A stretch of 38,658 nt of DNA from Geosiphon pyriformis (taxonomy: Eukaryota > Glomeromycota > Glomeromycetes > Archaeosporales > Geosiphonaceae), in assembly GCA_016748015.1 (NCBI GenBank), contig JAAOMT010000379.1:86869-125526 (forward strand). The letters run 5' to 3'. Under the pieces are notes generated by a model. It saw only the letters and a program-made list of their open reading frames with translations. It did no database searches and was not told where the DNA came from. Position 1 is the first letter of the stretch, and every line of letters begins with the position of its first letter. The position numbers and the translations under genes were made by a program. Below, piece by piece: positions 14,782-37,043 of the stretch.

Positions 14782-14799
14782 TTCCGTAGGAGAGCACCA
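14782..14799 (-). other. Primer-binding site of the Gypsy element
   Basis: On the element strand the 5' LTR is followed by TT and then TGGTGCTCTCCTACGG. Read as its complement, this is ...GGAGAGC-A-CCA, exactly the form of a tRNA acceptor 3' strand, discriminator base and CCA end. I cannot name the tRNA without a tRNA set; it is not the usual TGGTATCAGAGC-type site. Confidence 0.7.
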
Positions 14800-14801
14800 A
14801 A

Positions 14802-15558
14802 TGTTACCGGAGGTTTTTGGTCTCTTTTCTTAAATGTTGTTTATGCCTGTTTGCTGTGAATTCACGTTTTCTGGATGTGGTTGAACCTCCAGTAACTGAA
14901 TTTATCTTCAAATTATCTCCTATAATTTGAACTGCTGGGCTTAGAGTAAAATGGCCAATTCTATGCCAATTACTTGACTGTAGTTATGTTGTAGTAAACA
15001 TCAACTTTTTTCCAAAAATTGCTTGTCTGGAAGCTCACTAAAAATGTGTAGTTACTTTGTTGTAAAAGTCAACTCTTCTACAGGAATCTTGTCTGTAGGC
15101 TACCTTAATAATTGTAATAAGAAAAAAACAGAAAAATAAAAGAAATGTAAAAGAAATAGGATTTTATCAAGGGAAACATTTTCTATTCAGGCCTGGAGTC
15201 ACTAACAGTTTACTGAAATTGGTAGCTAATCAATTTCAAAACATTAGTTGGGTTTTTAGAGATTTTCCAAGTGTAATAATTAAAGAATTTGGTTTTTCGA
15301 ATTTTTTGATATTTATTTCTTTTTGTGTGTATAGGAATGGTTCTAAGTGCTAAATCTAAAGTAAGATATATTTTCTCAAAAAGAAAAGCTCTTTTTTTAT
15401 ACAACTTGTCATAACACTATTTTATGAACTTGAACTTTGCTATTTTTTACAATTTTGCTAAACTAAAAATATATTTTGGCAAACTACAAGTTATTTTTGC
15501 AAACTATTAAATATTTCAGTAAACTATCAATTATTTCGGCAAATTTTTACAAATTTTG
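14802..15558 (-). repeat. Gypsy 5' LTR (right copy)
   Basis: Direct repeat of 6651-7376, oriented with the element. It starts TGTTACCGGAGG at its left edge. Homology stops just after ACAAATTTTG at about 15558; the U3 edge could equally be the TACA at 15551. It carries 31 bp around 15147-15178 that are absent from the other LTR; using the 7369 and 15551 edges this exactly explains the length difference (719 against 750 bp). Confidence 0.87.
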
Positions 15559-15786
15559 GTGAACTTTTTGAATGTTACATAGTTCAGAGTATTGCATAAT
15601 TGATCATCGCAATTAGGTTACATTTATGTTATGTGCAAATTGGGTTATTAATTAAATAATAATTTCAGACATTCTGCTAATGTAATAAGTGATAATTTGA
15701 ATGATAATATATGCTAATTAATAATAGGAATTATAAAGATAATTTCATGCTAAATAATATCTCTAATTTTGTCTAATAACAATACA
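15559..15786. other. Unexplained AT-rich segment between Gypsy LTR and resumed LINE ORF2
   Basis: The LINE reading stops at 6650 (CQYA) and resumes at about 15787 (PLDYMGNDTF). The Gypsy LTR ends near 15558, so 228 bp belong to neither. The sequence is AT-rich with repeated TGCTAA words, has no open frame, and does not match the inner edge of the left LTR. It may be a small second insertion or a rearranged junction. Confidence 0.5.
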
Positions 15787-18700: not shown

Positions 18701-18957
18701 GTTTTGTTAAGTTGCATTGTTCTAGAATTTGGCTGGTGAGATCTAAGTATAGGGTAGATATAGAGAGGACTGGTTTGGTTAGAGATGGTAAACTGGTGTC
18801 AGGTCTCACACAGTGTATGGTGCAGATAATATTAGATAGTATAGTTAGAATGCTTAGCATTGCCAATTTTTTTACAGTTAGCTTTGGGTGTCATAAGTCT
18901 TGTCTTTTTTTTTCTGAGTTGGATTGTGATTCATGTGTTATTATAGGTGTATAGTAA
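15787..18957 (+). pseudogene. LINE ORF2 C-terminal part: reverse transcriptase, RNase H and tail
   Basis: RT blocks: DEKAAGLFGIPNELWKHGG, VSMIPKPYDWNG, SIALIETSRKIL, then in another frame from about 16131 DNFSVLRGTSTQS, LDQGKVFSPLLWRIFYDPLL, AIVDDMIWVGS (the catalytic two Asp are retained) and ISINNDKTVAIPIN. The thumb runs on to about 17510. RNase H: DVFTDDSLKNFG (family DGS), LAELQAIALALEC, VHTDSQAIIDAY and KKHSGVCGNEKAN. The tail from 18379 has PDVQCLLCGEMKLLNHVFLC, a CCHC-type motif commonly seen after RNase H in such elements. Frameshifts are near 16100 and 18370; there are about ten stops. Identity is secure. Confidence 0.85.
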
Positions 18958-19108
18958 TGTTTTGTCTGGCCCAAGTGGCTGGCCACATATAGCAAGCACA
19001 TAAACCATATTTAGTTTGAGTCTCTTAGTATGGCTTTATGTATTAGATAATAGTTAGATTTTATTCATTAAATGCATTTAATAAAAAAATAAAAATAAAA
19101 ATTAATAT
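18958..19108 (+). other. LINE 3' untranslated region and A-rich tail
   Basis: After the stop at 18957 there is a moderately complex stretch and then an A-rich run (about 19081-19108) that merges into AT-rich flank. The tail is the expected end of a LINE copy. Confidence 0.5.
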
Positions 19109-21589
19109 AAAAAAATTATTGGCTAATATATATATTAATTAATAAAAATTTTTTTAATTATAAAATTTTTTTTTTCAGTTATAAATTAATTTGAATTTAT
19201 ATTTATTTTATATAAATTATTATTATTAATTATAAAATTTAATATTTAATATTTTATTTAATTTTAATATATAAATCTTATAAGTTTTACAAAATTATTT
19301 AAAATTATATTAATATTTCAAATTATTTATAAATTATATTTTAGTTTTTTTATATAAATATTTTTATTACTTTTTGGTTTTTGTTTTTACATATTATAAT
19401 ATAACAAAACTCAATAAAATATTTATTATTTAGATTATTAAATTTAAAATAAATACTATAAAAAAAAGTTTAATTAAAAATAAAAACATTTCAACTTTTA
19501 ATTTTGTAAAAAATCTTATTAAAAATTAATTGTAAATAACAATAAGATATTTAATTAAAACATTAAATTAACATAGATTTACATATAAGTTGTATTTAAT
19601 ATAAAATATTTTATTGTTAAATTTATTTAAACAATGGTTAATTTATATTATATGCAAATAAATAGACCATAATTTACTAAATTTATTATTTATTTATTAA
19701 AAAATTAGTTTTATTGTATTTAAATTCAATTATTTTGTTGATAATTGACAAACTATTACAGATATTACTTTAAAATTTAATTAACATATTTAGTTTTAAT
19801 TATTAATTTAAAAATAAAACTAATAATCCAAAATTATTTTATTTGAAAAACTATAAAGTTTAATAATATTTTGGAAAATTAATTGAACAATATTTTTAAA
19901 GATTAACGTTTTTTTATATATTATTATAGTTTACCAATTGATTATTATAAAAATCGAATCTTTTTTATTAATAAAAAACAAATCTGTTATAAAATTTATT
20001 TATATAATAACTTAAATTTTTAAAACACTTACATTCTTTTGTATTGTAGAAATAATAAAAAAAGTATATAATAAGTTAATTAAAATAACTTAAATTTACT
20101 AAGATGTTTTTTGTTATAATATTAATAATTTTTTAAGTAGATATTTATTTATTATTTTAAAAACATTAATTAACTTAATTTTGTGTTTTTTTAAATTATG
20201 CAACTATAACCAAAAAACTTAAAAATAACAACATAAAATAAACTTTTTATAATATTAAAAATTAATTAAAAAGTTTTTATTTAATATTCTCAAAAATAAT
20301 AAATTGATTAATAATAATTTTTAATAATATAAAATAATATTTATTTATAATCAATATATTTTGTTAAATTGTTAATTTTTATTAATAAAACAAGAAATAA
20401 TATTAAAATTAATTAAAATTATTACAATTACATTAAAATTTGATTTAAATATTTAAATATTTACAAAATAATTAAAATCTTAATAAAAACTTTTGTTTTT
20501 ATTAGAATTAAAACCAAAATAAAACTGATTAATTAACATCTTCTTTTTTCAATTTACATTAATAAAATTTTTAAATATATGTTTAATTAACTTGTAATTA
20601 AGCAAAAAAAAATTTATATAAGTATTTTTTAGCTGAATTATCTAAAAAGCTTAAACATTTAAATAAGATAAATTTATTTTATAAAAATAATAAAAATATA
20701 TATATATAATACAGCAAAACAAATAAAACTATATAACAAATAATTAATTAATTAATCCAAAAAGTATTTAATAATTAATGTTTAATCTACTTAAAAACCA
20801 AAAATTAGTTTAATTTTTTATATATATTTGAATATTTTTTTTAAATCTTATTATTAATTAACCAAATTAGTAAGTTAATTAAATATTCCAAAATATCTAT
20901 TGAATTTTCTTAGTATATTATAGCTTATAAGAAATAACATATAACTTTTTTCACAATAAGCCTATATTTAATTATATTATAATTATATTATAAATAAACA
21001 CTCTATCAAAAATTTATATTAAATAAGTTAAATTAAAAATATCTATTTAAGTTTTTACAATTGCCGTTTTTAAAAAATGAGAAATTTTAATATTAAAAAC
21101 TTTGTGTTAAATATTATGTTAAATAGTAAATTAAAAACTTATTTTATTCAATATAGAAATTTTTGTAATATAAATAATGTATAATTTTTTCACTGTAAGC
21201 CTACATTTGATTTTTTGAAACCAGATAAATAGAAAAAAAGCTAGTTTTTATTGTAAAAAAGTGGCATTCTATTTTTTTTTGATTATATTACAAATAAACA
21301 CTTTATTAGAAATTTATATTAAATAAAGTAAATTAAATTATCTTTTAGGTTTAAGTTTTTACAATTGTTATTTAGAAAATAAAAAATTTCAATATAAAAA
21401 ACTTTGTGCTGAATATCCTGTTGACTAGTGAATTAAATTAATTCAAAAAACTGGTTATATTAATGAAATAATCTAATCCCAAAGTAATAAAATTAAGAGT
21501 CGTATTTTAGAAATCACTTTGGACTCAAACATTTTATGAACTTAACAGCTTTTTTATATTGTATTATCTAAATAATAATAATAATAATG

Positions 21590-22340: not shown

Positions 22341-22824
22341 NNNNNNNNNNNNNNNNNNNNNNNNNNNNNNNNNNNNNNNNNNNNNNNNNNNNNNNNNNNN
22401 NNNNNNNNNNNNNNNNNNNNNNNNNNNNNNNNNNNNNNNNNNNNNNNNNNNNNNNNNNNNNNNNNNNNNNNNNNNNNNNNNNNNNNNNNNNNNNNNNNNN
22501 NNNNNNNNNNNNNNNNNNNNNNNNNNNNNNNNNNNNNNNNNNNNNNNNNNNNNNNNNNNNNNNNNNNNNNNNNNNNNNNNNNNNNNNNNNNNNNNNNNNN
22601 NNNNNNNNNNNNNNNNNNNNNNNNNNNNNNNNNNNNNNNNNNNNNNNNNNNNNNNNNNNNNNNNNNNNNNNNNNNNNNNNNNNNNNNNNNNNNNNNNNNN
22701 NNNNNNNNNNNNNNNNNNNNNNNNNNNNNNNNNNNNNNNNNNNNNNNNNNNNNNNNNNNNNNNNNNNNNNNNNNNNNNNNNNNNNNNNNNNNNNNNNNNN
22801 NNNNNNNNNNNNNNNNNNNNNNNN
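22341..22824. other. Assembly gap (484 N)
   Basis: All bases are N. Reading frames drawn through it are artefacts. The gap separates AT-rich DNA on the left from CpG-rich DNA on the right and removes the 5' part of the dioxygenase unit. Confidence 1.
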
Positions 22825-22909
22825 AAACGGACCGACCCTCTCAAAGCGGAAGAAGTTACAACGACATGCCAAGAAGGCGAAGGTCGAGATTTTCTACAAT
22901 CCGGTTAAA
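22825..22909 (+). pseudogene. 5' piece of dioxygenase unit copy 1 (basic, NLS-like exon end)
   Basis: The frame reading NGPTLSKRKKLQRHAKKAKV and on to YNPVK is open from the gap edge and ends at a GTAAGT splice-donor-like hexamer (22910-22915). The cluster of Lys/Arg would suit a nuclear-localisation signal. The matching stretch in copy 2 is at about 34637-34715 (minus). Whether this piece joins the downstream ORF by splicing is inference; the acceptor would lie near 23292. Confidence 0.4.
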
Positions 22910-22967
22910 GTAAGTTAAATTATATAGTTAATATTTTTTAGCGGCTTCGAGATACATTGCATATATT

Positions 22968-22982
22968 GTTCGACAGTTGAAC
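22968..22982. other. Small hairpin, conserved in copy 2
   Basis: GTTC-GACAGTT-GAAC. The copy 2 counterpart (34572-34586, read on the minus strand) is GTTT-GATAGTT-AAAC: the innermost C:G pair became T:A, so pairing is kept. Confidence 0.5.
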
Positions 22983-23002
22983 TTGAAGTATAGGGGCAAT
23001 CA

Positions 23003-23020
23003 TTCGCCTTTCGAGGCAAA
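23003..23020. other. Hairpin with TTCG tetraloop, conserved in copy 2
   Basis: TTCGCCT-TTCG-AGGCAAA: a stem with one C-A mismatch closed by a TTCG loop. In copy 2 (34534-34551, minus) it is TTTGTCT-TTCG-AGACAAA, a perfect 7-bp stem with the same loop. One C:G pair is replaced by T:A. Confidence 0.55.
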
Positions 23021-23292
23021 GTCTAGGGGCTGATTGAACCCTCCCTCGCAAAGTTTTACTTTATATATTTTACCTTCAAGAATGGGTTACCAAATTATTA
23101 TTGTCCTTTAGCAAGGAGAGAAAGATCCGATACGCTTTCTAAAACCTCCGAGCTATTTATAGGATGAGAAATTTTTTGTGTGTATCCTTCTTATTCTTTT
23201 TGAAATCTATAACTCCTTGAAATATATTACCCCTTTAATATCTACATATATTCATATCTATTATATATTTTTTTCTTTGCACAAAACACAAG

Positions 23293-24436
23293 CGGAGACT
23301 TGCAAACTTACAAAAAAAAGAAATCCGTGATTATATTCGGTCATGTTGGGTTTATGAGGACATTAAACCTGACGATCTTATCGAAAAACTTTTCGAAGAT
23401 AAATTTCAAAGACATTACCGAAATAAATTCAACCGATTTAATTTCCAATGACAATAAAGAATTCTCGGTACCCACTCAATATTTAGAGTTGTTGGAGTAT
23501 GAAATTTTTCACGCTAGAGACCCTTTTAGATCAAACCTCTTCAGAACTGTGGAAAAAGTTTGAACAGTGGGCAGGTTTTGAAAAGAATAAAAATTTCGAC
23601 ATCATTGCTATCACCTATGGAAAAAAAACAAAGCACGCATACGAACTACATATGGAAGCCCAAAAAAGTCCTATGGAACTTTATGATATCCCGAATGTGT
23701 TCCTATGCCGTCCGAACGATAAACTTTTTATAGCGAATGAAGCAACTAAGAAGATTGCGGGTGACGTTCATCTAGACGGTTACAAGTATGTTTCTAAACC
23801 TAGGTGTTTTAAAAATGCAATTGGTGAAACGATGATAGATTTCTTCGATCTCAACAACCACCTGGCCGTAAAGACTGCACGAGTGATAGTAGATCAACAT
23901 TATAAACAAACCTTAGTGAGCCTTCTCATCGATCTAACCAATTCATCAAGGATTTAATAGAACATTTCGGTTGTTTTACCGATAATAATAATATACCATA
24001 TGTCACTTCGAATCCTGCTTTTACACATTCCCAGGAGCATCGTAAGTGTGTTCAGGATTTGATTCGAGGACTTCAGCCACTTTCCGACGCAGTAAACAAT
24101 TATATTAACAACGCATATCCAGCATTATACGCTAAAATGAAAAAACTCAACTTACGTCTTAACACTCCTAAATTTTTTGGAGCCTTCCCCACTATTAGTA
24201 TTAACTTTAATAGCATCTGCCAATTTCATCGAGATCTAAAAGATCATCTTAATACACTCTGTATCGTCTGCCCTCTCAGAACGTTTGAGGGTGGGCATCT
24301 AGCATTTCCTGAACTAAAGTTGGCAGTTATGGTGAAGCAAGGGAAAATGAATAAAGCGGGATATAGCGATTTGTCTTCGGCTAGGAAATTAAAAATTTTT
24401 TCTAGTTATTCAGGCCATAGTAAATACAGTATATAA
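23293..24436 (+). pseudogene. Probable 2-oxoglutarate/Fe(II) dioxygenase (TET/JBP-like), copy 1, indel-broken
   Basis: The pieces read in order across three frames: KEIRDYIRSCWVYEDIKPDD; ISNDNKEFSVPTQYLELLE; SSELWKKFEQWAGFEKNKNF on to LDGYKYVSKPRCFKN; FIKDLIEHFGCF; then NTPKFFGAFPTISINFN and QFHRDLKDHLNTLCIVCPL, TFEGGHLAFPELKLAVM. The HRD gives the metal-binding H-x-D (His 24227-24229, Asp 24233-24235), and the FxGGxLxFPEL strand-turn is typical of fungal TET/JBP-like dioxygenases. Against copy 2 it has an extra A near 23311-23318, a deletion of roughly 60 bp near 23370, and small indels near 23405, 23527 and 23905. After VKQGK (about 24350) it loses similarity, so the distal His and the 2OG-binding Arg are missing. 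It retains many CpGs. Such enzymes oxidise 5-methylcytosine or related bases; the substrate here is unknown. Confidence 0.6.
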
Positions 24437-25019
24437 CGAGGTAATAAAAAATACTTATCTTTAATTTAGGGAGGCTTAACCTCGTTGCTCCGCAACCCCG
24501 AAATCTCTCACGATTCTTGCTCTAACACGCGTGTCCATAGAGTAAAATCCATGGTTCGTAGTTACGCGCGTCTGATCGCATATATTCTATAAACGATAAT
24601 TGCCTCGACTAAAGTCGAGTTTTTCGCACGTGTTATATATGCTAATTTATCCGCTTCACGGAATCGGAGATAAGTCAGCGACTCGCGAAACCTTTGATTT
24701 CCTCTCCTTATACCAATTTATTTTTGTATATGTCCCTTCGAGTAAATAAAATACTGCTAAACCCGAGTTTCTGTGAAACAGATCTCATGTGCTACAGATA
24801 TTGTGAATAGTGCCGATTCGGACTTGCCAATCATAAGCTAGCTAGTAGACTGCTGATTGTTTTAGCTCGTGACTCATGCATTTTCTTTGTGAAGTTTTTT
24901 TTTCCCAAATCTACTATTCCCATACTTGGACGAGACAGAGAAAAACGTTTTAAAATAACAGTATATCTACATTATGTTTATTTATTGCTCTCTACTCAAA
25001 AACTTTTACAACTGAAAAT
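24437..25019. other. CpG-rich noncoding segment with a chain of small hairpins; promoter side of next gene
   Basis: No gene seen. It stands out by composition: 22 CpG in 24481-24720 and perfect palindromes such as ACACGCGTGT (24525-24534). Short stems follow one another: GAGG-CTTAA-CCTC (24471-24483), GTTGC-TCC-GCAAC (24484-24496) and CTCGACT-AA-AGTCGAG (24604-24619, then a T run). From about 24900 it becomes AT-rich and should contain the promoter of the gene at 25020; I see no definite TATA box. Confidence 0.55.
24604..24619. other. Perfect 7-bp stem-loop
   Basis: CTCGACT-AA-AGTCGAG followed by TTTTTC. The two-base loop means it is better seen as a near-palindrome in DNA than as a stable RNA hairpin. 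Confidence 0.6.
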
Positions 25020-27142
25020 ATGTCGACTATTGTATTTAACAAAATTTTTGACTTTATGAGAGATGAACCAGTGAAGCATGTCACAGCAGGGTCAGTAATT
25101 TATATAGGCACAGAAGACGATCAAACAATATCAAAAGATGAACTCTTAAAGCTGACAATTGATGCAATTCGGTCCATGAAAAACATTGCTGGTGAAGATT
25201 CTGAACGCTTTAGAAAGATTTCTAATATTCCTTTAGAGGTTAGTTATTCTCTTTTTTAGACATTTTTTATACATTATGATGACAACGCAGATATCACTTG
25301 ACAAAGTCAAAATAAATACCCGAGCCTACAAGTACATCAAGTTGCGACTTTCGAACGTAGTGAAAGGTGTTTCGACTCCGTGGAGTAATATTTAGATAAG
25401 TTAGAGTCCTTGTGGCGGCCGAACAAGGATGACAACTTTAGGATATTTCTGATTGTGCGTGCAAATGGAGGGAGATAATATATACATTATCAAGTTATAC
25501 TAACAAAATATTATTCTGCATCAGTTTGAATGCGCCTATGAAACCATCTGTAGTCTACGTGATATCAAGGCGTTAAAAATGGTATGACAGATTACTTTTT
25601 GTAACAATAATATCTATGAATTTAAACTAATATGTATATATATATAAAGAGTAAACAAGTTCTTGATAATGATACGATAAAGAAAAATAGAAGATATTTA
25701 CAAGGGAGACTTTCAAGTGATTCTTCTTCCCTTTCTGTGGAACTCTATGAAAACATGAAAAATATTTCCATTACAAATCTAACCTGGAAAGATCCTCTAG
25801 CTAGTCGAATTATAAGTGATGATTCCATCATTGTAGAAAATTTGTCACCTAAACAGCATCAAGAGTTTTTGGTAAGAATAACTTCGTTTTTCTCTGTTGT
25901 AATTAAAATTTTAATTAAATTGATCTTTCAACAGAAACCAGCACATAATATGGTCGTCACACTCCCAAACTCGGTCCAAGATAAATGCCATGAGTTCGTA
26001 TTAAGGTTTTCAGAAAAATATACTAAAGATTTATGTATAAAACTTGTGCATAATGAGAAATGGAAAGAGTCAGACGAAATTCTTATGGGGGTTACAGATA
26101 ATATTCTTGATGTATTGTAAGTAGTTTTCAAAACGGATAAAGTTATAGAATCCTTGAATTGATAATTTTATATTATTGATTATCAGGGATGATGTTTGGA
26201 TGAATCCAGCATTTGGACCAGAACTTATGAAAACACAAAGTGAAGAAACATACATAACAAACATAATAATTCCTTTGATTCGAGCATCATTGAAAGGGCT
26301 TCCATATAGGCAATTTGGATTTATAAGCACGTAAGTTGTTTATTATAAGTGATAATATATTTATCACCACCAAATTCACATTTTTAGAAAATTACTATAG
26401 TGCGGAGCGACAAAGCATTGCCAGTGCAGATAGGAAAGAGGATGGATATTTCAGAAAACGACCAGATTTTATGTACTTACAAAAACAGGAAGGCAGGATA
26501 TTTGAGCTGGTATTTGGTGAATGCTCACGTTTATTATGTAGTGATACCAAAAAAAAGGAAGATGAAATTAAATTGTGGAGGGAATTGAATGATGGACTTT
26601 TTTGGGTACGACAAGGGTGTAAACTAGAAAATGATCAATTTGGTGTTGTAGGAATTCAGGTAGCAGGTAAAGTCTTGGTATTGTAAGATTATTTCAGAAT
26701 TTTTCATTGTTTGTCAATTTAATAACAAAATATGATATTATAGGGACTGAGATCCAATTGAATGTACTTATCAAAGACAATCTCGATATACACCGATATT
26801 ATCATCTGAAAAAAACCCAAATTCCAATACAGTGGTCTAAACAAGCTTTATCAACCTTACCTGAATTTGTTGAACTATTGTTGAATTTACGGGTATTTAT
26901 TCTAATACATCAAATTTTATTTATATGTACAACAAAAGTAATTTTATTTTATATAGAATATCCTGGTCGTTAATTTATCTCTGTTAATGCAAGTACCTAT
27001 AAGTAAAACGCATCGTGTCGAAAAAAGTATCACCATATCATCACTTAGAAAAGAAATACCTGACGAACAAAACAAAAAGAGACAGAGAAGATCCAAGAAA
27101 ACATTAGGATCTATTAAGCATAGAAAAACTGCATATTTTTAG
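25020..27142 (+). CDS. Uncharacterised 455-aa protein, seven exons, possible PD-(D/E)XK-like fold
   Basis: I infer exons 25020-25238, 25650-25871, 25935-26116, 26187-26330, 26401-26666, 26744-26892 and 26957-27142. Every junction has GT...AG, introns 2-6 are 63-77 bp, and the exon sum (1368 nt) is an exact multiple of three without internal stop. Joins give continuous sense, e.g. ILDVL/DDVWMNP, FIST/AERQS and VA/GTEIQLNV. Start: ATG 25020, after an A-rich leader. Residues 257-300 include SIASADRKEDG, RPD (276-278) and GECSRL (295-300); a PD...E-x-S spacing recalls PD-(D/E)XK nucleases, but the usual Lys is Ser, so catalysis is doubtful. The C-terminus has KKRQRRSKK, a nuclear-localisation-like cluster. 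I recall relatives as an expanded unnamed family in Rhizophagus. The sole intact-looking gene of the window; the boundaries of the 411-bp first intron are the weakest part of the model. Confidence 0.75.
25239..25649 (+). other. Unusually long first intron with hairpin-rich, CpG-containing core
   Basis: 411 bp against 63-77 bp for the gene's other introns. The donor is GTTAGT and the acceptor ATAAAG. The core 25340-25430 has three successive small stems: CTTTC...GAAAG (about 25348-25366), ACTCC-GT-GGAGT (25375-25386) and TCCTTGT-GGCGGCCGA-ACAAGGA (25407-25429). This resembles the hairpin chain at 24471-24619 in style. It may be an insertion inside an originally short intron. Confidence 0.5.
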
Positions 27143-27508
27143 AATATAAATACTATAAATGATTGCTTTGTATTTCTATTTGTAATAATAAGAACTTGGT
27201 TATTTTAGGTGTAATCACGTTGGTTATTTTTTTTCCAGATAATATGGAGTGCAGTCTGATTTATCAGCCACATGATCTAGTCTAAAGTCGTGCAACCCAA
27301 AATAGATTTATATAGATATATCTCGAAATAGATTTTACAAGTGTCTTTTATAATTGAAAGCATAATATCAAGCTCTACTCATCCAATTTAAAAGATGTAT
27401 TCTATGAGTTGGAGATTCGCTCTTTATGGAAAGCACAAAGTGATATTGTTCTACAATCTTCAAGTTTCATCATAATAGAATCTAACTATCAAGCTTTAAT
27501 GGCTGGTT
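27143..27508. other. Intergenic region between the spliced gene and the ATPase relic
   Basis: The 3' flank of the plus-strand gene meets the degraded 3' flank of the minus-strand ATPase relic. Minus-strand traces such as HKERISNS could be tail remnants of the ATPase, but no frame is convincing. Confidence 0.45.
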
Positions 27509-28135
27509 CTAACCTTTGCAAAAATAAAAAGGGTCCTCTTTTGGTCTAGTCAACAAATTGTCAGCTTTGCAAATTTGTATAATATAACTCAGATTCTTTT
27601 TTATTAATTTTGGACAGTTGAAAAAACTTTGTGTTACATAGATTGAACTAATGTTAAAGTAATGTCTCTTAGTAAAGTAAGGGACAATTTTCTCTTGTAT
27701 TTTTTTAGGCTCAGTACATAGACTTTCAAATATAATCACTGTCCCTCTTTCGGAAGAAAACTCATCAATTTTTGGTATTTTTTCAGACTTCATTGATCAG
27801 AATGTAATATTTTCTTGATATTACTTTGGACTATTTAAAATTATTCAGTAACAATCCTTTAGGTATCTATATTTCAGCTCCTTAAGATAATGTCCAATCA
27901 AAACCAGATTATCATTTTTAATATAGTATATTCCACCTTTTTTCCTATTAAATATTCGATACATCTTGTTTCCAAGTAAAAGACTAATAACTTCATTAGT
28001 TTTCCCCAATCTAGTTTGCCCTGAAACCACCATAGTAAATGACCATTGGCATGTTAAATTTAATCCATTAAACTTCTCTAAATGTTTGTATTTATCTACA
28101 TTCAAAACTATTTTCTCAACTCGATCAAGCTTCAT
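27509..28135 (-). pseudogene. A32-type DNA-packaging ATPase (FtsK/HerA fold), nonsense-broken relic
   Basis: One minus-strand frame runs from ATG (28135) to 27509 with three stops between 27793 and 27845 and no frameshift. Walker A is [14 protein letters not shown]; Walker B is [13 protein letters not shown] (the family has two acids after the hydrophobic run; here Glu-Ser). Then [37 protein letters not shown] matches the sensor region, with conserved Gln in VTQS, and the NLSYI end typical of A32-like packaging ATPases of large DNA viruses and Polinton-like elements (family knowledge). The usual C-terminal part is missing. One stop (FxS, TTC TGA) is best explained by CGA to TGA. Its origin could be an endogenised large DNA virus or a Polinton-like transposon; this window cannot decide. 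Confidence 0.72.
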
Positions 28136-28164
28136 TTTAATAAAGATAAGTACTAAATATTAGA

Positions 28165-28341
28165 TCAAAAATTAAAGATCTTTATTGCTATATATATACC
28201 GAATTTTTTATTTGCAGAGCAAAGACACTTATGTGCCCTTTGATAAATTATCATTTCGCAAGTAACTTTTCTCTCGCAATATATGCAGAATATAGGAGAA
28301 GGGTCTGCTGTATGTGGAATCTCAATGAGATCTATATCTTT
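28165..28341 (-). pseudogene. Zinc-finger-like C-terminal fragment upstream of the ATPase relic
   Basis: The minus-strand frame between stops reads KDIDLIEIPHTADPSPIFC, then IYCERKVTCEMIIYQRAHKC and LCSANKKFGIYI. The spacing C-X2-C...H-X-C-X-C suggests a small zinc finger. It ends at TGA 28165-28167, 30 bp before the ATPase ATG, on the same strand, so the two look like neighbours in one ancestral gene array. Too short to name. Confidence 0.45.
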
Positions 28342-28879
28342 TCACTTACATATATCCCGTTTTTTTTGTCTTGCAGTTGCTGATTTGTCAAATTACTTTT
28401 ACCATCAGTTTAGTAGTATAAATAATAAACACTATAATATTGAGATTCTTGGTATTCCTATGCCAATTTTAGCTTTTTATCATATCTATCAGATCAAAGC
28501 CCATCTAAAAATTTAGCCTTATGAGAAAATTGTGTCTGAAATTTTACATAATGTGTTCAGAATTTTATGAAGTCATATGTAATAATCAGGAGCATATTAA
28601 AAATCTCATCTCGTATATGTCAAGACTGCATAGAAAACCATTTGGAATTCATTAGGAATTATGAGTCTACATATATAATACAGAATTTTTAAATGCACAT
28701 TGAACTCCATACTTTAAATTCAGATGTGTTGTATTTCTCATATAAATTTTATATGTTTCAATGTGATGCATTCAAAAATTCATATCGAATTCTTAGATAA
28801 CTTATAATGGCATATTATGTATATGAAATCTCTTAGTACAAATTCACTAGTTGTAATAATGCTACTATTTGGATATTAC
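28342..28879 (-). other. Decayed minus-strand coding-like traces
   Basis: Minus-strand translation gives stretches with protein-like composition broken by stops: FDLIDMIKS, NWHRNTKNLNIIVFIIYTTK (about 28375-28490) and RIRYEFLNASH, NLYEKYNTSEFKVWSSMCI, MNSKWFSMQS (about 28560-28800). Stops often replace likely Arg/Gln/Trp. They may be further genes of the array with the zinc finger and ATPase. I do not recognise them; a chance reading of AT-rich DNA remains possible. Confidence 0.3.
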
Positions 28880-29541
28880 AAAAAGAAAAAAGTGCTAAGC
28901 CATAGAATAGTACTATGATAAGTTGTATAAAAAAAAAGCTTTCTTTTGAAGAAAATATATTTTAACTAGAATTATTTTTCTTAGTATCAATTTCAATTCA
29001 GAAAATTGTTACAAATCTATTCAAATAAAAATTCACTTTAAAAATTCAAAATTCTTAATTATTACTCTTTCAAAATTACCAATAATTAAAACTAACATTT
29101 TAAAATTGATTAGCTACTAATTTCAGTAACTGTTAGTACTTCCAGGCTTGAATTAGAAATGACTTCTTGGAATGTAATTTTATTACTTTTTTTCTTTAAA
29201 TTTTCTTTAATTCTTTTATATTATTAGATAGTTTACAGTTGAGATTTTCTGTAGAAAAGTTGACTTTTACAGCAAAATAACTACATATTATTGAGGAGCT
29301 TACAGCTTAAAAATTCTTGTAAAAGAGTTAATCTTTACTGCAAAGTAACTACATTAGTAATTCACATGAAATTTGGCCATTCCATTATAAGTCTAACAAC
29401 AAACATAGTCCAAAGTATCTTTTTATACTTTGGAAGATAAATTAGCTTATTGAAGATTTACCAGCTTCTATTAATAACAGAATTAACAGTAAAACAACAT
29501 TGATAACATTAAAAAAAAAAGATAAAAAACTTTTAATAACA
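28880..29541 (+). repeat. LTR of the second Gypsy copy
   Basis: It aligns with the reverse complement of 14802-15558: e.g. ATAGTACTATGATAAGTTGT at about 28906 against ATAGTGTTATGACAAGTTGT, and GGCCATTCCAT near 29379. The first part of the LTR is missing. The end is AATAACA at 29541, then TT and AAGTGCTTTTTTAAGAA, which lines up with the TGGTGCTCTCCTACGGAA primer-binding site, now decayed by transitions. Confidence 0.75.
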
Positions 29542-30920
29542 TTAAGTGCTTTTTTAAGAACAATACAACAACAATTAAATTAAATTGAAGATCATATTTG
29601 ACATAAAAATTCTAGAATATTATCAGTCAATTTACATCTGCTGCAAACAAAAATTTGGAATACAATATAGAATCAAAGTTGTTAAGAAAATGCTTTTTTA
29701 ATACATAAAAAATTGAGTCAATAATTATTTCTTTAAAAATTACAATATTACAAAAGTTAAATAAAATCTTTTTAAAAACTTACTTTTACTATTTAAATGT
29801 AAAATCAGAAGTCATTAGTGCAAATATTTGCATTATTTATTTCCAAAAACTTCATATTTAGTTAAACAACTTTTAACATATCAAAAAGCATTGCTAAATA
29901 CTTATTAATATTATGAATTAACAATCAACAACTCTGCTATTTTTACACACAAATTAGCTATCTTACTATATTTAAAGACCAAAATTTTTATTAAACTGCA
30001 TTTTTGCAATAAAATTGCAGTTTAAACACAAAGCCTTTTTCACAATATTAAAATTTTATTAGCCAAAATAGCTCAAAACAATAACTTATCTAATATTTTT
30101 CAATTTAAAACCGATAAATCACCATTTTTGTTAAATAATATAACTATTTTTGAACAAAAAACAATTACTATAATGTACCCTAAAGTTAAAATTAAAAGAA
30201 AATTAATTTGGTTAATCTTAAATATTAAATTTACTAAAAGTATTATTATTTATCAGTTAATACAAAACTCAAACAAGATGTTAATAAACCAATTCAAACA
30301 GTAATTATTATTGCTAATAGTATAAAAAAAATACTAATCTAAAAAAGTCGAATACATTGAGTAAATCTTAGAATTTGCTAGATTAAGTTACAAAAATAAA
30401 GTTGAATTATACTATATAATATTTAATTATTGTTACTTACTAAAAAAAACCCAAATTCAATATTTAAAACAAATAAACATTCAATTATGTGAAAAATACA
30501 TTATGTTTACAATAACCAGTAATGTTTAAAATACTATATTATTAGCATACCATTACTTACTAAAGAAAATAAATATAAAATTGAATTTAAAAAATTAAAA
30601 TTAGAAAAAAAAATCTCAATAATGTTAATTTATCTTATCAAAAGCTTATTTGCATTACAACTCAAGTATTTTAACAACAATAAGCAAAAAATTAAACCAG
30701 AAAAAGCCCACAAAATAGATGCTAAATATGATTTACGATATTTAGAAAAAGATATCTTGGTTTTACAACCAAAATTATTAACAAAATTAATTTTAAAATT
30801 GTTTTAAAATCTCACTAGGAGCAATAGTGCAAATTATTTTTCAATCATTATTGACAAGCAAAATTAATATGAGAAAAATAATTATAGATATTAAATATAC
30901 AGAAAAACTTAAAAATTTAA
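29542..30920 (+). pseudogene. Gag/protease/Cys-rich/dUTPase remnants of second Gypsy copy
   Basis: Gag start: ILEYYQSIYICCKQKFGI near 29612-29665. Protease: NNITIFEQKTITIMYP, then IWLILNIKFTKSIIIYQLIQ (30140-30270), where the active-site region is destroyed, and DVNKPIQTVIIIANSIKK to 30340. Cys-rich block: YIxxILEFARLSYKNKVELYY and INIQLCEKYIM (30350-30520). dUTPase: KIDAKYDLRYLEKDILVLQ (30622-30807 frame), then ISLGAIVQII and IIIDIKYTEK to about 30915. Frames shift several times. It proves the dUTPase belongs to the family. Confidence 0.7.
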
Positions 30921-30930
30921 ATTAACTAAA

Positions 30931-32924
30931 TAATTTACAATTCTAATAAATATAGTTTTTATTATACTATATGATTTTGGAAAAGTTTATATTAGAATTT
31001 TTTAATCATTTTTCTGATTTTATAAAGATGTAAATAATAATTCATCTTTAAATATAGTTTTGGCTAACCAATAAGTTTTTTGCCAATCTTAAAAAAGATT
31101 GGTTTAGAAAGCAAAATAATAAATAATAAATAATAAATAATAATTATTTTTTAAAATTAAGAAACTGATTTAATGGTCTTTCTAGCAATAATTTTAATGT
31201 TTACATTGAACTTGGAATACATTTAGTTATTATAATAAATCAAACCATTAATTTTTAAATTTATATAAATTTTTAATTTCTAAATCACCAAAATTCAAGA
31301 AATCACTAAAGTTTACATTTTTGGTTAAAATTCTCTAATTTTTTAAGTAAACTTAAAAATATTTAACTTGAACAATGTTAAGAAACAAAATTATAAGTTT
31401 TTTGTTTAAGAGCTTTTTGTTAGTAGCAGTAGTAGTGAAAAAACGGCAAAAAAAAGCCAAAAACCAGTTTTATTAAATATTTTAAATAAGTATAGAAAGC
31501 CAAAGAATGCTAAAAATGCTCAAAATTTTGGTAATAACAAGAAAAAAATTGCAACATTGAACAGTAAAGCAATGTTTAATAAAGGGTATTAAAAAAAAGC
31601 AGATTGGAAAAGCAGATTATAAATGACATGTTGACACAACTGGCAAAAGTAAAAAATTTGAAATACTTGTTGAAAACTTAACAAAAAATTAGGAAAAAGA
31701 ATTTTATTAATCAAGATACAAAACTTAAAAAAATAATATATATTTTTGTAAATAGCTATATTCTTATTGCTGTCTCTTATTCAAAAGTGCTTATTCAATG
31801 TTAGTGTTAGAAATTTTTTACTTTAAATATTAATTTTATATTGCTATTGCAAGTTTGGCCAAAGAAAATATTTTAATTGTAATTAATACTATTAAATCTG
31901 TGCAAATATGTTTATATTGAACTTTATAAAGGTATTTTCTTTCATCTAATAAATAATATTTCCTTTCTACCTAATTTTGATTATGTGGTAAAGTTTTTCT
32001 CAAATGTAAATCACAATAATCAGTTTTTTTTTTATATTCTTTTTTCCTTGAACTAATGTTGTTTAACTATAAATAATCTAAGTTGTTTTAGTACTCAAAG
32101 ACATCAAATAAATTTTCTATTGTCTTTTTGCTTAAACAAATAGTTCTAACAGATCTGTAAATAAAAGCTTAACCACTGTTACTTAAATACAATAAACTAA
32201 TTCAAAAACATAATACCCAAAGAAACATCATGAATTTACAATTAATTAGCATTTATCAAATAACCTATTAATTTAGATATAAAGATTTCAAATAAAAATT
32301 AATATAAAGACCAGAGGCAAAATTTATTTTTTTAAAGCACAAATTAGAAAAGTTTTATATATATATTTTAATATGCAAATTAATAATGAAGTGTATAAGA
32401 GTTTCATATTTAAAAAATAGTATTCTAGGTTTTTAAGAGTTTTTGAAAATAATAAGTTGACCAGTTTGAAACTTGTAAATTTTTTTAATTATATATTAAA
32501 AAAAATTCAATATAATAGCCAAGCTAAAAATAGAATAAAAAAAAACAAATTAATTAAAAATATGGACTTGAAATTTGTTAATAATAATAATAAAAGAAGA
32601 TAATTAGAAATAGAGTATTGTTTTAGAACAATTAAGATTTATAAATTTGAAAAATCTACATATTTGGTTTCAAATATATGAAATATAGTTAATTAATTTT
32701 TTTTTAGATACAACAGTTGGTTTAAATTTCAGATTAAAATATATTTATATAGCCATCTTAAGTCTACACAGCAATAACTTATTATTATAAAAACATTATT
32801 TTCTATACTGTGCAATAAAAAACATAAATTAATACAATATATTTTATTATAAAATTTCAATGAGCTAATTTATTATACTTATTGAGATGATTCTGCTTAT
32901 AGTTTTTAATTTTATTGTAAATTT
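30931..32924. other. AT-rich DNA, no gene seen
   Basis: Probably degraded transposon and simple sequence. It contains a small hairpin CCAATCTT-AAAA-AAGATTGG (31083-31102) followed by about four AAATAAT units (31115-31144). Lys-rich stretches around 31420-31620 give no recognisable protein. Confidence 0.5.
31083..31144. repeat. Hairpin plus AAATAAT minisatellite
   Basis: An 8-bp perfect stem with an AAAA loop, then roughly four 7-bp units. Probably simple-sequence noise of an AT-rich genome. Confidence 0.55.
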
Positions 32925-34720
32925 TTGAGAATCCAACTTAGGAGGAGAATATTTTTGCGGTTTCTTATTGTGCCTTTTAATATTATTCACAATTAAGTAA
33001 GTATTATCTAAAATCTCCATCATTGAAAAGAGAGCCAAATTTCCGTTTTTGTTTTATAATAGTGTCATAAATATAGAAGACAATGCTATGTTTTAACTTA
33101 ATCATTATTAGAAAATTTCTATGAACTAAATAACATGACTGAAAAGTGATTTTCTGTTCTTGCTTTACCATAACTGCCAACTTTAGTTCAGGAAATGCTA
33201 GATGCTCACCCTCAAATGTCCCAAGAAGGCAGACAATACAGAATGTATTATAATAATCTTTTAAATCTCGATGAAATTGACAGATTTTATTAAAGTTAAT
33301 ACTAATAGTGGAGAAAACTCCAAAAAATTTAGGAGTGTTAGGATCTAAGTTGAGTTTTTTTATTTTAGCATATAATGCCAGATATGCATTGTTAAGATAA
33401 TTGTTTACTTTATCAGAAAGTGGCTGAAGTCTTCAAATTAAATCTTGAACACATTTACCATACTCCTAGGAATGTATAAAAATAGTATTTAAAGTAACAT
33501 ATAATATATTGTTATTATTAGTAAAACAACCAAAATGTTCTATTAAATCCTTGAAAAATTGATTAAATCGATGAAAAGGCTCACTAAAGTTGTGTTTATA
33601 ATATTAATTTACTGTCATTCATGCAGTTTTTATGGCCAGGTGGTTGTTAAGGTCAGAGAAATCTATCATCATTTTATCAATTGCATTTTTAAAACACTTA
33701 GGTTTAGAAACATACTTGTAACCGTCTAGATAGATGTCATTTACAACCTTCTTAATTGTTTTATTTGCTATAAAAAGTTTATCATTTGGATAACATAGGA
33801 ATAAATTCAGGATATTATAAAGTTCTATAAGATTTTTTGGGGCTTTTATATGTAGTTCATACATGTGCCTTGTTTTTTTTCATAGATGGCAGCAATAGTG
33901 TCAAAATTTTTTAGTCTTTTCAAAACCTGTCCACTGTTCAAACTTTTCTCACAGTTCTGAAAAGTTTTGATCTAAAGGGTCTTTATCATGAAAAATCTCA
34001 CATTCTAACAACTCTAAATATTGAGTGAGTACTAAGAATTCTTTATTGTCATTGGAAATTAAATTGGTTGAATTTATTTTGGTAATATGTCTTTGAAATT
34101 TATTTTTTAAAAGTTTTTTGATGAATGTAGACCTTAGATTAAAGAATGTAAATGGTTGCAATATATTGGCTGATTTAAAATCATCAGTTTTAAAGTCTTT
34201 AGAAACCCAAAATAACCAAATATAATTACGGATTTCTTTTTTTGTAAGTTTAAAAGTTTCTATTTGTGTTTTGTGCTAAAAAAATATATATAATAAATAT
34301 GAAAATATGTAGATATTAAAGAGGTAATAGATTTCAAGGAGTTATAAATTTCAAGAAGAATAAGAAGGATATATGCAAAAAATTTCTTATCCTATAGATA
34401 GTTCAGAGATTTTAGAAAGTGTATTGGATCTTTTTCTCCTTACTAAAAAACAATAATAATTTGGTAATCCATTCTTGAAGGTAAAATATATAAAGTAAAA
34501 CTTTGTGAGGAAAAGTTCAATCAGTTTCTAAACTTTGTCTCGAAAGACAAATGATTGCCCCTATATTTCAAGTTTAACTATCAAACAATATATACAATGT
34601 ATTTCGAACTTGCTAAAAAATACTACTATATAATTTAATTTACTTTAACCAAATCATAGAAAATTTTGACCTTCACCTTCTTGGCATGTTATTGTAACTT
34701 TTTCCGCATGTTCTGCTTTG
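32925..34720 (-). pseudogene. Probable 2-oxoglutarate/Fe(II) dioxygenase unit, copy 2, transition-decayed
   Basis: The minus-strand reading parallels copy 1 and goes further at the C-terminus. KLTKKEIRNYI; SANILQPFTFFNLRSTFIKK (absent from copy 1); ISNDNKEFLVLTQYLELLE; LYNILNLFLCYPNDKLFIAN; YLDGYKYVSKPKCFKNAI; FKDLIEHFGCF; NTPKFFGVFSTISINFN; QFHRDLKDYYNTFCIVCLL (His 33271-33273, Asp 33265-33267); FEGEHLAFPELKLAVM; ITFQSCYLVHRNF (distal His 33121-33123); LKHSIVFYIYD, where Lys stands at the usual 2OG-binding Arg. The tail to about 32925 reads KRHNKKPQKYSPPKLDS after a shift. Four stops (near 33618, 33605, 33470 and 33440) match Arg or Gln codons of copy 1 by C-to-T. The complete H-x-D...H...R/K order supports a double-stranded beta-helix dioxygenase. 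The noncoding part (34262-34636) is also conserved. Confidence 0.62.
34534..34551. other. TTCG-loop hairpin (copy 2 counterpart)
   Basis: TTTGTCT-CGAA-AGACAAA on the plus strand; on the minus strand the loop is TTCG. A perfect 7-bp stem, counterpart of 23003-23020. Confidence 0.6.
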
Positions 34721-34850
34721 TTTATTACTTGATGTGTCTATTGCTTGCTTAATTCCTCCAAAATATACAATAGTTCTAATAGTAAAAAAAACATAGAATG
34801 AAAAGTTGCTGGTGGAATAAAAGAATAAGACACTTGTTTGAATAACATAT

Positions 34851-34933
34851 AAATTTTCTTTTGTAAGACTACTGATCAAATCACCATCATGATGTCAGAT
34901 GGCAATGATCAGCAGTCTTACTAAAGAAAATTT
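34851..34933. repeat. 28-bp imperfect inverted repeat (foldback)
   Basis: Arms 34851-34878 and 34906-34933 match at 26 of 28 positions as reverse complements, with a 27-bp spacer containing ATCACCATCATGATGTCAGA. It lies about 130 bp beyond the 5' edge of dioxygenase copy 2. It could be a miniature foldback element, or a recombination product that marks the edge of the duplicated unit. Confidence 0.7.
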
Positions 34934-35390
34934 ATTGTGTTTTTGTTTTGGAATAGCAGTTTGGAAAATTATTTTATTTTATTTCTTCTAACTTTCAATG
35001 ATTGTTTAGCTCTTGTCACTTATCTGATCTCAAACTTTCATAGATTTAATGTCATTGAAGACCACTCTCAATAAGCAATCATATGAAAAGGAAAAACTTT
35101 AGCTATAAATTCTGTTTTTCTATCTGCTATGTATCACTTTACAATAAGAGATTTTTAACTTTTTTTTCTTTATATGGTAAATTTATCTAAGATGTCTCTA
35201 TAGTATGTGCATTTAGGGAGATAATTGAAAAGTTGTCATCAAAAATTGAAAAAAAACTTGCTGTGAAAGTGCCTTCTATGTGTAATATTAATTCAATACC
35301 TAATATTTTTAAATATTGAGTTTTTATTTCTGTTATTCTATTTTTTTTCTTTTAAAAAAGCCATCTTGATGATTAGAAATATTTGGCCTG
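34934..35390. other. No gene seen
   Basis: T-rich, moderately AT-rich sequence between the foldback and the tandem array. No frame or repeat that I can support. Confidence 0.5.
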
Positions 35391-36175
35391 CTATTTTTTT
35401 CACTATTCTTTTTTTACTCATATTGTTTATGTGGTCTTCAGATGATAGATAATGTCTGAAAGTGTAAAGAAGAGATGTTATGCTTGTCTTCAGACAGTGA
35501 CCTTTTCAATACAGTTTTGTTTACTAGTTTACCCTTAGGTGATCAGTCAGCAGAAGTGCAAGTGGAAAAATCTCACTTACCTTCAAGTGGTAAACTTTCT
35601 ACTTGTAAAGATAAGCTGCCAAGTTTTGTGTAGTTCTCAGACAGCAAACTGGTGGCAATTTTTTCTCTACCCACATTGTCCATGCAGTTTTCAGACAGTA
35701 GATAATGTCTGGAAGTATGAAGAAAAAATGTCATGCTTGTCCTCAGACAGTGACTTTTTCAACACAATTTTGTTTACTGGTTTACTCTCAGGTGATTAGT
35801 TGGCAGAAGTACAAATAGAAAAATCTTACTTATTCTCAGGTGGTAAACTTTCTACTTGTAAAAATAAGCCACCAAGTTTTGTGTAGTCCTCAAACAGCAA
35901 ACTGATGGCAAGTTTTTTTCTATTTTTGTTTTACTCACATTGTTCATGCAGTCCTCAGATGGTAGATAATGCCTGGAAGTGTGAAGAAGAGATGTCATTC
36001 TTGTTCTCAGACAGTGATCTTTTCAACACAATCTTGTTTACTGGTTTATGCTTAGGTGATCAGTTGCAGAAGTACAAATAAAAAGATCTCACTTACCCTC
36101 AGATGGTAAACTTTTTACTTGTAAAGATAAGTCACCAAGATTTGTGTGGTCCTTAGACAGCAAACTAGTGAAGAC
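35391..36175 (+). repeat. Tandem array of about three ~253-264-bp units with decayed coding sense
   Basis: The anchor GATAATGTCT recurs at 35448 and 35701, and GATAATGCCT at 35965 (spacing 253 and 264 bp); the third unit ends near 36175. Each unit repeats CTCAGACAGTGA, TTGTTTACTGGTTTA, GGTAAACTTTCTACTTGTAA and CAGACAGCAAACTG. In one plus-strand frame each unit suggests EEEMSCLSSDSDLFNTILFT, GLLSGD, AEVQVEKSHL, GGKLSTCKDK, SDSKLVA with unit-specific stops. The Ser-Asp core suggests a repeat protein or a tandem regulatory satellite. I do not recognise the family. Confidence 0.75.
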
Positions 36176-37043
36176 TGATAATAGTTGGTATTTTTTGGTC
36201 CAACTAAATCCAGATTTAATTTCTCAATTTGTATTTTTTTGCATTGTATTACTTACTACTTATTAAGTTAACATTATACTCTCAAGATTCAACTAAATCA
36301 ATTTGTGATTACGCCTAATCTAATAAAAGCTTTCTGTAACAGTTATCTTATGTGGTTGAAGGTACAGTATTATTAGAATTTTTAATTAATACATAAAACC
36401 CAAAACTCGGTTTTTAAAAATTTCAACAATAGAACTCGAAAACTAAGTTTTTATGTAAAAACCTTATTCAATTATTTGATACTCTGCCAACTCATGCTGA
36501 CCAGTTTCTGGATATTATTAATATCTCTTTTTGCAAAACTTTCTGTGTATTTATACTAGGACTTAGGAAAAATATGACCTTGATTTTTATATTAGCTGTT
36601 TTTAATCTATTTATAACTGACAATATTATCTTATTTTAACAAATGCTGCCCTTTTGGAGATGAGGTTTACCAAAATTGAATCCGAAATAGAGCTGGTTGA
36701 GTCTGTGGATATATTGACCACATGTCTTTTAGAATTACTTTATAGTAACTCTGATTTTTGAATCGAATTTTTCCTTAACAGAACTGAGAAGTATGTTTTC
36801 ATTTTGTGTACTGTTCTTAGTGTTTATTAGTTTTTGTTTCCATTTTTAACAATAATTTTACACTTTGTTTTCTAAGAAACTCAAAAAGCACTCCAATGAC
36901 AATAAAAAATAGATCTGATCTTCTTGGATATGTTAAAAATGTACTAGTTGGTTCCACTGTTCACAAAACTTTACCTGGATGATCTCAATGTTTGATACAC
37001 AGCTGTTAAGATAAGCATTAATATTGTTTATATTCTTAAAACC
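36176..37043 (+). other. Mostly noncoding; possible short coding relic near 36640-36830
   Basis: One plus-strand stretch reads NAALLEMRFTKIESEIELVE and on to LLELLYSNSDF, helix-like and broken by a stop; it could be the coiled-coil end of an upstream decayed gene. Nothing else is supported. Confidence 0.3.

Follow-up and report, generated by a model that had tools for sequence, protein, structure and literature searches.

Near-pure C-to-T mutation in repeats of Geosiphon pyriformis, with spared and altered copies of a TET/JBP-like dioxygenase unit

About half of the copies of a repeated, dioxygenase-encoding family in the genome of Geosiphon pyriformis are altered by a process that produces almost nothing but C:G to T:A changes, acting in all cytosine contexts and on both strands. 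The same process reaches Ty3 and LINE-like repeats and an rRNA gene copy, and it is missing from some duplicated segments. Further, the mutational state depends on position, even inside one element. We put the probability at roughly 0.55 that these patterns reflect cytosine mutagenesis in every context, linked to silenced and perhaps methylated chromatin that is capable of spreading, a process that would be RIP-like without being classical RIP. The window, that is, the whole stretch of DNA analysed here, comprises 38,658 nucleotides of contig JAAOMT010000379.1; its GC content falls to 10-11% in places (19001-21000). Two copies of the dioxygenase unit, both broken, lie in it about 9 kb apart:

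22846 to 24341, plus strand: copy 1 of the unit for a TET/JBP-like dioxygenase, rich in CpG and frameshifted, ending before the distal His and the Arg of the 2OG domain
33159 to 34707, minus strand: copy 2 of the dioxygenase unit, mutated by C>T/G>A, with in-frame stops
33007 to 33432, minus strand: open stretch of copy 2 with the Tet_JBP match
30962 to 36473, minus strand: repeated unit holding copy 2, homologous to C318 and partly to C346 and C327
35405 to 36174, minus strand: three tandem repeats of 253 nt each, in the 5' part of copy 2's unit

The two copies pair as inverted arms in eight blocks of 48 to 433 nt that are 83-89% complementary. The original prediction, that one unit occurs twice in inverted orientation, was thus right about the inversion and too low in its count: the family occupies at least 13 places in the genome, six of them CpG-rich and seven CpG-poor. 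The shared core was correctly located as well, but the predicted ends at 24436 and 32925 overrun it. Copy 1 was said to keep its CpGs and to be broken by indels, and indeed it holds 58 CpG (observed/expected 1.12, GC 36%) and lacks stretches of 54, 9, 2 and 1 bases, besides having extra single bases; several of these indels are common to other copies. Copy 2, as anticipated, has few indels (within the unit's body one base is lost at each of two places, one of which is shared by C327) and retains nine CpG (observed/expected 0.29, GC 27%). The nearest relatives of copy 1 are C216, C187 and C262 (94-98% identity), whereas copy 2 is 77-85% identical to every other family copy.

Copies 1 and 2 are dead members of a repeated element, probably a mobile one, with a TET/JBP-like dioxygenase. 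The homology ends near 30962 and 36473, where reading of the sequence revealed no clear termini, and no transposase match was obtained in the nine family or composite open stretches scanned, which cover part of the unit only. The predicted kinship of the protein to TET/JBP enzymes found support in matches to Pfam Tet_JBP (PF12851) for copy 2 (E 9e-8) and copy 1 (E 9.8e-6), albeit below the gathering score: five open stretches gave E-values of 4e-8 to 2e-5, the best at 33.7 bits against a gathering score of 34.9. The core motif of 2OG-Fe(II) dioxygenases consists of HxD, a distal His and an Arg. Copy 2 retains HRD and the distal His, with Lys in place of Arg; copy 1, C216 and C187 are without the distal part. 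A single-sequence structure model has a mean pLDDT of 44.6, too low for a double-stranded beta-helix fold to be read. The encoded dioxygenase is dead in both window copies, and any role for it here is therefore unsupported.

Of the 532 C/G sites in copy 1, copy 2 has C>T/G>A changes at 161, about 30% (84 C>T and 77 G>A); reverse transitions number only 23 and transversions 24 over 1484 sites. These counts omit copy 1 sequence past the fusion point at 24341. The CpG excess expected in copy 2 is present (54/106 sites), and changes outside CpG are also frequent (107/426). Four stops in copy 2 had been traced to CGA, CAA, CAG and CGA codons of copy 1, and this was confirmed for the first three (33621, 33606 and 33468) by a script that searched 4 bases either side; the fourth, a TGA at 33435 aligned with CGA, lies outside that search range and was read by eye. 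Two comparisons were discarded. Taking the full predicted span of copy 1 as reference placed 31 to 37 "other" changes in a single bin (bases 1401-1600) in all four copies that reach it, a pile-up that arises because copy 1 is fused to a different sequence there; counts for C357 and C241, neither of which extends that far, are unaffected. Polarising branches with C357 as the sole outgroup produced a false T>C excess, 33 changes on copy 1 and 19 on C216; the probable cause is loss of the same C in C357, and those numbers were not used.

Other family members bear the same signature. At sites where copy 1 and C216 agree, C357 has T or A at 187 of 392 C/G sites, with reverse transitions at 4/795 and transversions at 7/1187; the highest load is that of C241, with C>T/G>A at 79/126 C/G sites. 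CpG observed/expected in the changed copies is 0-0.29. The ratio of C>T to transversions differs among six copies only at p 0.056, though between copy 2 and C357 alone at p 0.004. In the pooled dioxygenase copies, CpG is hit more than C after a pyrimidine, which in turn is hit more than C after a purine. This order recurs in two unrelated families, namely in ten Ty3 copies (CpG 53/160, YpCpH 266/1928, RpCpH 139/1928) and ten LINE-like copies (27/78, 581/2640 and 320/2518, respectively). Divergence among the Ty3 copies amounts to 9.1% transitions and 0.49% transversions, and among the LINE-like copies to 15.3% and 1.66%. In the window's own LTR pair, two ungapped 300-nt blocks hold 45 transitions and 3 transversions; we trust these blocks more than the full gapped alignment (70 and 45). 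An SSU rRNA copy, compared at 487 positions of strong conservation, has 18 changes there, and 16 of them are C>U or G>A.

The dependence on position is seen in the composite repeat to which copy 1 is fused:

24342 to 28216, plus strand: remainder of the composite fused to copy 1, parts of which are also in C187, C357, C31 and C262; more C>T towards the right end
26661 to 28216, plus strand: loaded part of the composite, with T/A at 103 of 509 C/G sites of the C187 copy
28880 to 29398, strand not assigned: decayed remnant, 71-75% like the LTR-side sequence of Ty3 copies, adjoining that end of the composite which carries the C>T load

From left to right, the window has T/A at 5/331, 23/329 and 103/509 of the C/G sites of the C187 copy. 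Changes in the reverse direction number 1, 10 and 14 over the same course, and transversions 4/842, 9/962 and 14/1493. The two ends thus differ in C>T (p 1e-18) and not in transversions (p 0.32), and non-CpG sites taken by themselves also differ (4/249 vs 76/435). Relative to the window, C187 has two deletions, near 24864-25029 and 25991-26661, which leave room for a mosaic origin of the gradient.

Duplicated segments were compared as well. Ordinary spectra were found in L013/L017 (about 1.1 kb; 31 C>T, 19 T>C, 25 transversions), in L008/L009 (about 2.4 kb; 23 C>T, 32 T>C, 39 transversions) and in L049/L050, a pair of lipase-gene relatives. Another lipase pair, L046/L047, shows the C>T process in one member, with 76 C>T in L046 vs 13 in L047 and 27 transversions over 3010 sites. 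Along L046 the C>T load runs from 0/93 at the left end to 13/74 at its peak and is then uneven, with no smooth slope; its context order is that of the repeats. The lipase relatives are 67-78% identical to the query, and the pairs compared are those above 72%, namely L046/L047, L049/L050, L048/L049 and L048/L050; the spectra of the two L048 pairs (76-77%) are ordinary too, and these pairs stand outside the four-pair count. A gap-tolerant BLAST comparison of L004 with L005 was dropped, because most of its alignments (57-64%, in AT-rich DNA) had no meaning. Duplication alone is a poor fit, since the spectrum is ordinary in three of the four duplicated segments compared; the fourth means that "genes are spared" is not a clean rule either.

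How might such a pattern arise? In the explanation that we favour, mutagenesis in silenced chromatin, a DNMT1-type methyltransferase would methylate cytosines within repeats, and 5-methylcytosine would turn into T, either through deamination or through a mutator that depends on the methyltransferase. Silencing would spread out of neighbouring repeats and take C>T damage into adjacent DNA. Copy 2 would then lie wholly within a silenced, mutated zone, and copy 1 in the left part, as yet spared, of a composite already mutated on its right. The genome has ten matches to PF00145, some closest to DNMT1 chains; we infer the link to silenced, methylated chromatin from sequence. A weak point is that the presumed source of spreading is no more than the 71-75% remnant at 28880-29398. 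We counted against the methylation reading a statement on 5mC in early-diverging fungi in a review (PMC13297926, in the passage cited); CpG methylation is called in Rhizophagus in the part of Dallaire 2021 cited here (PMC8647823). A bolder version, which we advance only tentatively, is that this early-diverging fungus has an active C mutator in silenced chromatin, beyond the lineages where RIP-like mutation has been recognised. Such a mutator would strike C in every context with a preference of its own (CpG > YpC > RpC), would creep from repeats into the DNA beside them, and would be countered by TET/JBP dioxygenases borne on the elements, which would keep some lineages CpG-rich.

Classical RIP recognises duplicates by homology and mutates C to T in premeiotic pulses in both copies, and a duplicate longer than about 0.8 kb with more than about 80% identity suffices to trigger it. 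The near-pure, all-context C>T load of the repeats, up to that of C241, and the presence of PF00145 genes are consistent with it, as is the weak coordination of strands that the dioxygenase copies show (p<0.05 in 3/6, combined 0.004). No such coordination is found in the ten Ty3 copies (98 switches vs 102.3 expected) or the ten LINE-like copies (152 vs 144.7), however. Duplication is not sufficient here, as L013/L017 and L008/L009 illustrate; copy 1 is spared despite a homologous copy only 9 kb away, the lipase pair is changed in one copy rather than both, and the order of contexts departs from that of ascomycete RIP, which prefers CpA. We therefore regard classical RIP as unlikely. Age alone, with one genome-wide AT-biased spectrum and CpG-rich copies that are merely young, is likewise unlikely. 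A strong AT bias does exist at 19001-21000, and copy 1 and C187 are 98% identical. Yet C>T rises along one element while transversions stay flat, which age fits poorly, and, counted in transversions, C357 lies at no greater distance from copy 1 (9/1165) than C216 does (17/1437), although its transitions number 211 vs 74 for C216. The transition-to-transversion ratio of the C357 branch (170:6) also departs from that of the copy 1/C216 pair (74:17; p 9e-5).

The original prediction invoked one sequence in two fixed chromatin environments, with decay of methylated CpG only. Of this, the opposite mutational states, poorly explained by age alone, and the dependence on position are supported; that the two are one sequence is not, given the distance of copy 2 from all other copies. 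In the families examined CpG suffers most, and it is depleted in the changed copies. Two thirds of the changes from copy 1 to copy 2 (107/161) nevertheless lie outside CpG, and this, together with the recurrence of the context order in Ty3 and LINE-like copies, makes CpG decay insufficient by itself. Non-CpG sites differ likewise along the composite, and C262 holds CpG-rich and CpG-free family pieces no more than about 0.6 kb apart, so that this explanation is very improbable. Least credible of all is a different origin, in which CpG-rich copies are recent arrivals from another genome or a virus-like element, undecayed so far. A second TET/JBP-like set (C68) does have six relatives on viral contigs (28-45% identity over 47-110 residues), but viral and prokaryote contigs scanned with the window's own domain alignment gave no relatives. 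Moreover, CpG-rich and CpG-poor copies are only about 1-2% apart by transversions in cleaned pairs and have homology blocks in common.

A near-pure C>T load in the repeats of this early-diverging fungus would widen the known range of repeat mutagenesis, and copies that are part spared and part changed would let the spreading of silencing be read from sequence. The window offers a direct test case: a single element with one half spared and the other mutated. Our literature search on hypermutation in AM fungi returned nothing useful among the papers listed. RIP signatures went undetected in Gigaspora margarita or Mucoromycotina in the part cited of Dallaire et al. 2021 (PMC8647823), and RIP-like enrichment is confined to ascomycetes in the results cited from Badet and Croll 2025 (PMC12543289). 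A k-mer screen of repeats against noncoding DNA could miss the C>T load wherever noncoding DNA already stands near 10% GC.

Like the RIP of Ascomycota, the process described here changes C:G to T:A almost exclusively, in repeats and on both strands, in a genome with cytosine methyltransferase genes; unlike it, the order is CpG > YpC > RpC rather than CpA, and duplication is insufficient. The Dim2-dependent mitotic mutator of Zymoseptoria tritici, as described in the portion of PMC8016269 cited, also concentrates C>T in repeats, there methylated and during mitotic growth, but more than 98% of its C>T are at CpA, where ours favour CpG and then pyrimidine-C. The CpG/TpCpG-biased repeat decay of Basidiomycota, ascribed in the section cited (PMC4352252) to methylation and deamination, resembles the present case in that CpG is hit most and departs from it in that most changes here are non-CpG. 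Finally, the TET/JBP-carrying fungal DNA transposons in the excerpt cited from Kojima 2025 (PMC12730594) are, like this one, repeated elements with a Tet_JBP-type domain; those are reported from Pucciniomycetes, Agaricomycetes and Pezizomycetes, whereas the element in our window is represented by dead copies in which no transposase or termini were identified.

A C>T process that acts in all cytosine contexts, and that is confined to particular copies and stretches within copies, is at work in several repeat families of the Geosiphon pyriformis genome (124.7 Mb, 406 contigs; window C378:86869-125526). It was traced from two dioxygenase units in the window:

22846-24341, plus strand: shared part of copy 1, an inverted match to copy 2
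33159-34707, minus strand: shared part of copy 2, an inverted match to copy 1

The two match in eight arm pairs (83-89% complementary), and both resemble Tet_JBP (E 9.8e-6 for copy 1, 9e-8 for copy 2), though under that family's gathering score. A DNA search with copy 2 placed the family at 13 sites, both window copies counted; copy 1 as query gave 17 matches which, merged by hand, were the same 13 plus pieces of a fused repeat. This second repeated stretch follows copy 1 after 24341, as it does in the C216 and C187 copies, and because of the fusion the domain's distal His and Arg are missing from copy 1. Copy 2 has in-frame stops and lies inside a longer unit (~30962-36473) common to C318 and partly to C346 and C327. 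Both copies are dead genes.

A run of N (22342-22824), either an assembly gap or withheld sequence, immediately precedes copy 1, and the 5' end of the composite (copy 1 plus the fused stretch, to 28216) is unreadable. Copies on C216, C187, C31 and C68 lie at, or a few kb from, contig ends, as if the assembly had broken in this repeat. A second, more distant TET/JBP-like set occurs on C68 (CpG-rich there), C207, C218 and C318, with open frames across the match on C68 and C218. A frame within the composite, at locus L007:4936-5307 (minus strand; aligned to window 26661-28216), has no Pfam match and may resemble packaging ATPases of viruses or Polintons.

When the 13 copies were aligned for CpG and GC, six were CpG-rich (copy 1, C216, C187, C346b, C314, C262; observed/expected 0.93-1.31, GC 34-39%) and seven CpG-poor (copy 2, C318, C346a, C357, C31, C327, C241; 0-0.29, GC 13-27%). 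The original prediction, that one unit is present twice in the window, inverted and in opposite mutational states, was right and is part of something larger. The alignment it called for, tallied by direction and context over 1484 sites, has T or A in copy 2 at 161 of 532 C/G sites of copy 1; reverse transitions number 23 and transversions 24. The changes fall at 54/106 CpG sites and at 107/426 sites in other contexts. The predicted stops of copy 2 are indeed C>T or G>A changes, three mapped by script and the fourth by eye. At positions on which copy 1 and C216 agree, the fraction converted in six pooled CpG-poor copies was 0.60-0.72 for NCG (all four contexts), 0.32-0.48 after C or T outside NCG, and 0.18-0.34 after A or G, GCC excepted (0.49).

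The signature extends to other sequences:

6651-15734, minus strand: Ty3-type LTR retrotransposon that has its two LTRs and matches RT and gag; 1172 candidate places genome-wide
16317-18954: putative LINE-like element, from a reading of frames; 2410 candidate places
C320:1044781-1046597: SSU rRNA gene copy (L021), 1.4 kb from a contig end; the one full SSU match found, though there may be others

The Ty3 identity is based on Pfam matches; the one frame of the LINE-like element that was searched had none, and this element's and other frames presumably resemble proteins of arbuscular mycorrhizal (AM) fungi. Ten copies of each were used, out of 40 candidates listed and scored per family. Conversion at CpG, YpCpH and RpCpH was 0.33, 0.14 and 0.07 in Ty3 and 0.35, 0.22 and 0.13 in LINE-like copies, the same order as in the dioxygenase copies. 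Mean pairwise differences were 9.1% transitions and 0.49% transversions (Ty3) and 15.3% and 1.66% (LINE-like); the LINE-like copies have CpG observed/expected of 0-0.14 at 33-37% GC. By the usual model an LTR pair is identical at insertion; between the window's own LTRs, two ungapped 300-nt blocks hold 45 transitions and 3 transversions, and the full gapped alignment 70 and 45. In L021, which is probably an rDNA pseudogene altered by mutation, ten hand-transcribed blocks contain 487 strongly conserved positions; 18 of these are changed, 16 by C>U or G>A, and 11 of those 16 lie at CpG. L021 near-matches, with one mismatch each, two AM-fungal primer sites, the second mismatch not being of the C>T kind; a third such site has no near-match in it. 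A place among Mucoromycota/Glomeromycotina fungi is likely.

Age alone accounts poorly for the two states. Measured against C187, the share of C/G sites with C>T in the window composite climbs from 5/331 (24023-24864) through 23/329 (25029-25991) to 103/509 (26661-28216); in the same three stretches, changes in the reverse direction number 1, 10 and 14, and transversions 4/842, 9/962 and 14/1493. The ends thus differ in C>T (p 1e-18) while transversions differ only at p 0.32, and non-CpG sites alone rise from 4/249 to 76/435. Further, by transversions the distance of C357 from copy 1 (9/1165) does not exceed that of C216 (17/1437), yet C357 has 211 transitions against 74; branch counts are 170:6 for C357 versus 74:17 for the copy 1/C216 pair (p 9e-5). 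Within ~0.6 kb, C262 holds CpG-rich and CpG-free family pieces with an intermediate piece between. Nor is duplication alone a likely trigger, since three of the four duplicated pairs examined, all above 80% identity, have an ordinary spectrum: the methyltransferase-like gene copies L013/L017 (88-90%; C>T 31, T>C 19, transversions 25; CpG observed/expected 0.85-1.12 in aligned bins), L008/L009, in which the dioxygenase pieces C346b and C314, both CpG-rich, are located (2431 sites; 23, 32, 39), and L049/L050 (82%; 77, 97, 209). The lipase pair L046/L047 is marked in one copy and spared in its twin, with 76 C>T on one side, 13 on its counterpart and a total of 27 transversions over 3010 sites (CpG 21/67, YpCpH 42/363, RpCpH 13/339); along L046, C>T goes from 0/93 at the left end to a peak of 13/74 and later 5 to 10 per full bin. 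This asymmetry indicates that, when a gene segment is duplicated, the signature can be borne by one copy and not by its twin.

Tract-wise mutation is expected to leave strand-coordinated runs. Such coordination was absent from the ten Ty3 copies (98 switches, 102.3 expected) and the ten LINE-like copies (152, 144.7 expected), and weak in six dioxygenase copies (p 0.0195, 0.58, 0.019, 0.29, 0.16, 0.046; combined 0.004), whose ratios of C>T to transversions differ among themselves at p 0.056 (copy 2 versus C357, p 0.004). Together, these results favour mutation site by site over time, with pulses possible.

We suggest that the C>T process would follow DNA methylation within silenced chromatin. 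The proposal of two chromatin or methylation environments came close, but the signal is C>T in all contexts, position-dependent, and spread across the repeat families examined. A link between the TET/JBP-like enzyme and these states is an attractive guess. The genome has ten PF00145 matches; the L016 and L018 fragments best match DNMT1 chains, and L013 matches 3g7u (a 376-residue cytosine-specific methyltransferase) and DNMT1 chains about equally. On C318, a methyltransferase-like gene and an inverted, apparently broken paralogue (788280-789372 and 820713-821336) lie ~31 kb apart.

A review gives 5mC as near-undetectable in early-diverging fungi (PMC13297926), which counts against methylation as the cause; in Dallaire 2021 (PMC8647823), CpG methylation is called, and bimodal, in Rhizophagus, and RIP is undetected in Gigaspora margarita or Mucoromycotina. 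RIP-like enrichment is described as unique to ascomycetes by Badet and Croll 2025 (PMC12543289). Among the papers listed, with preprints and most subscription literature outside the search, none described RIP, hypermutation by C>T or methylation beyond CpG in AM fungi. TET-carrying transposons are reported from three classes of Dikarya (Kojima 2025, PMC12730594), and Basidiomycota repeats decay by C>T biased to CpG/TpCpG (Amselem 2015, PMC4352252). In Zymoseptoria, Dim2-dependent C>T occurs in mitotic growth and falls at CpA (PMC8016269), unlike the all-context process found here.
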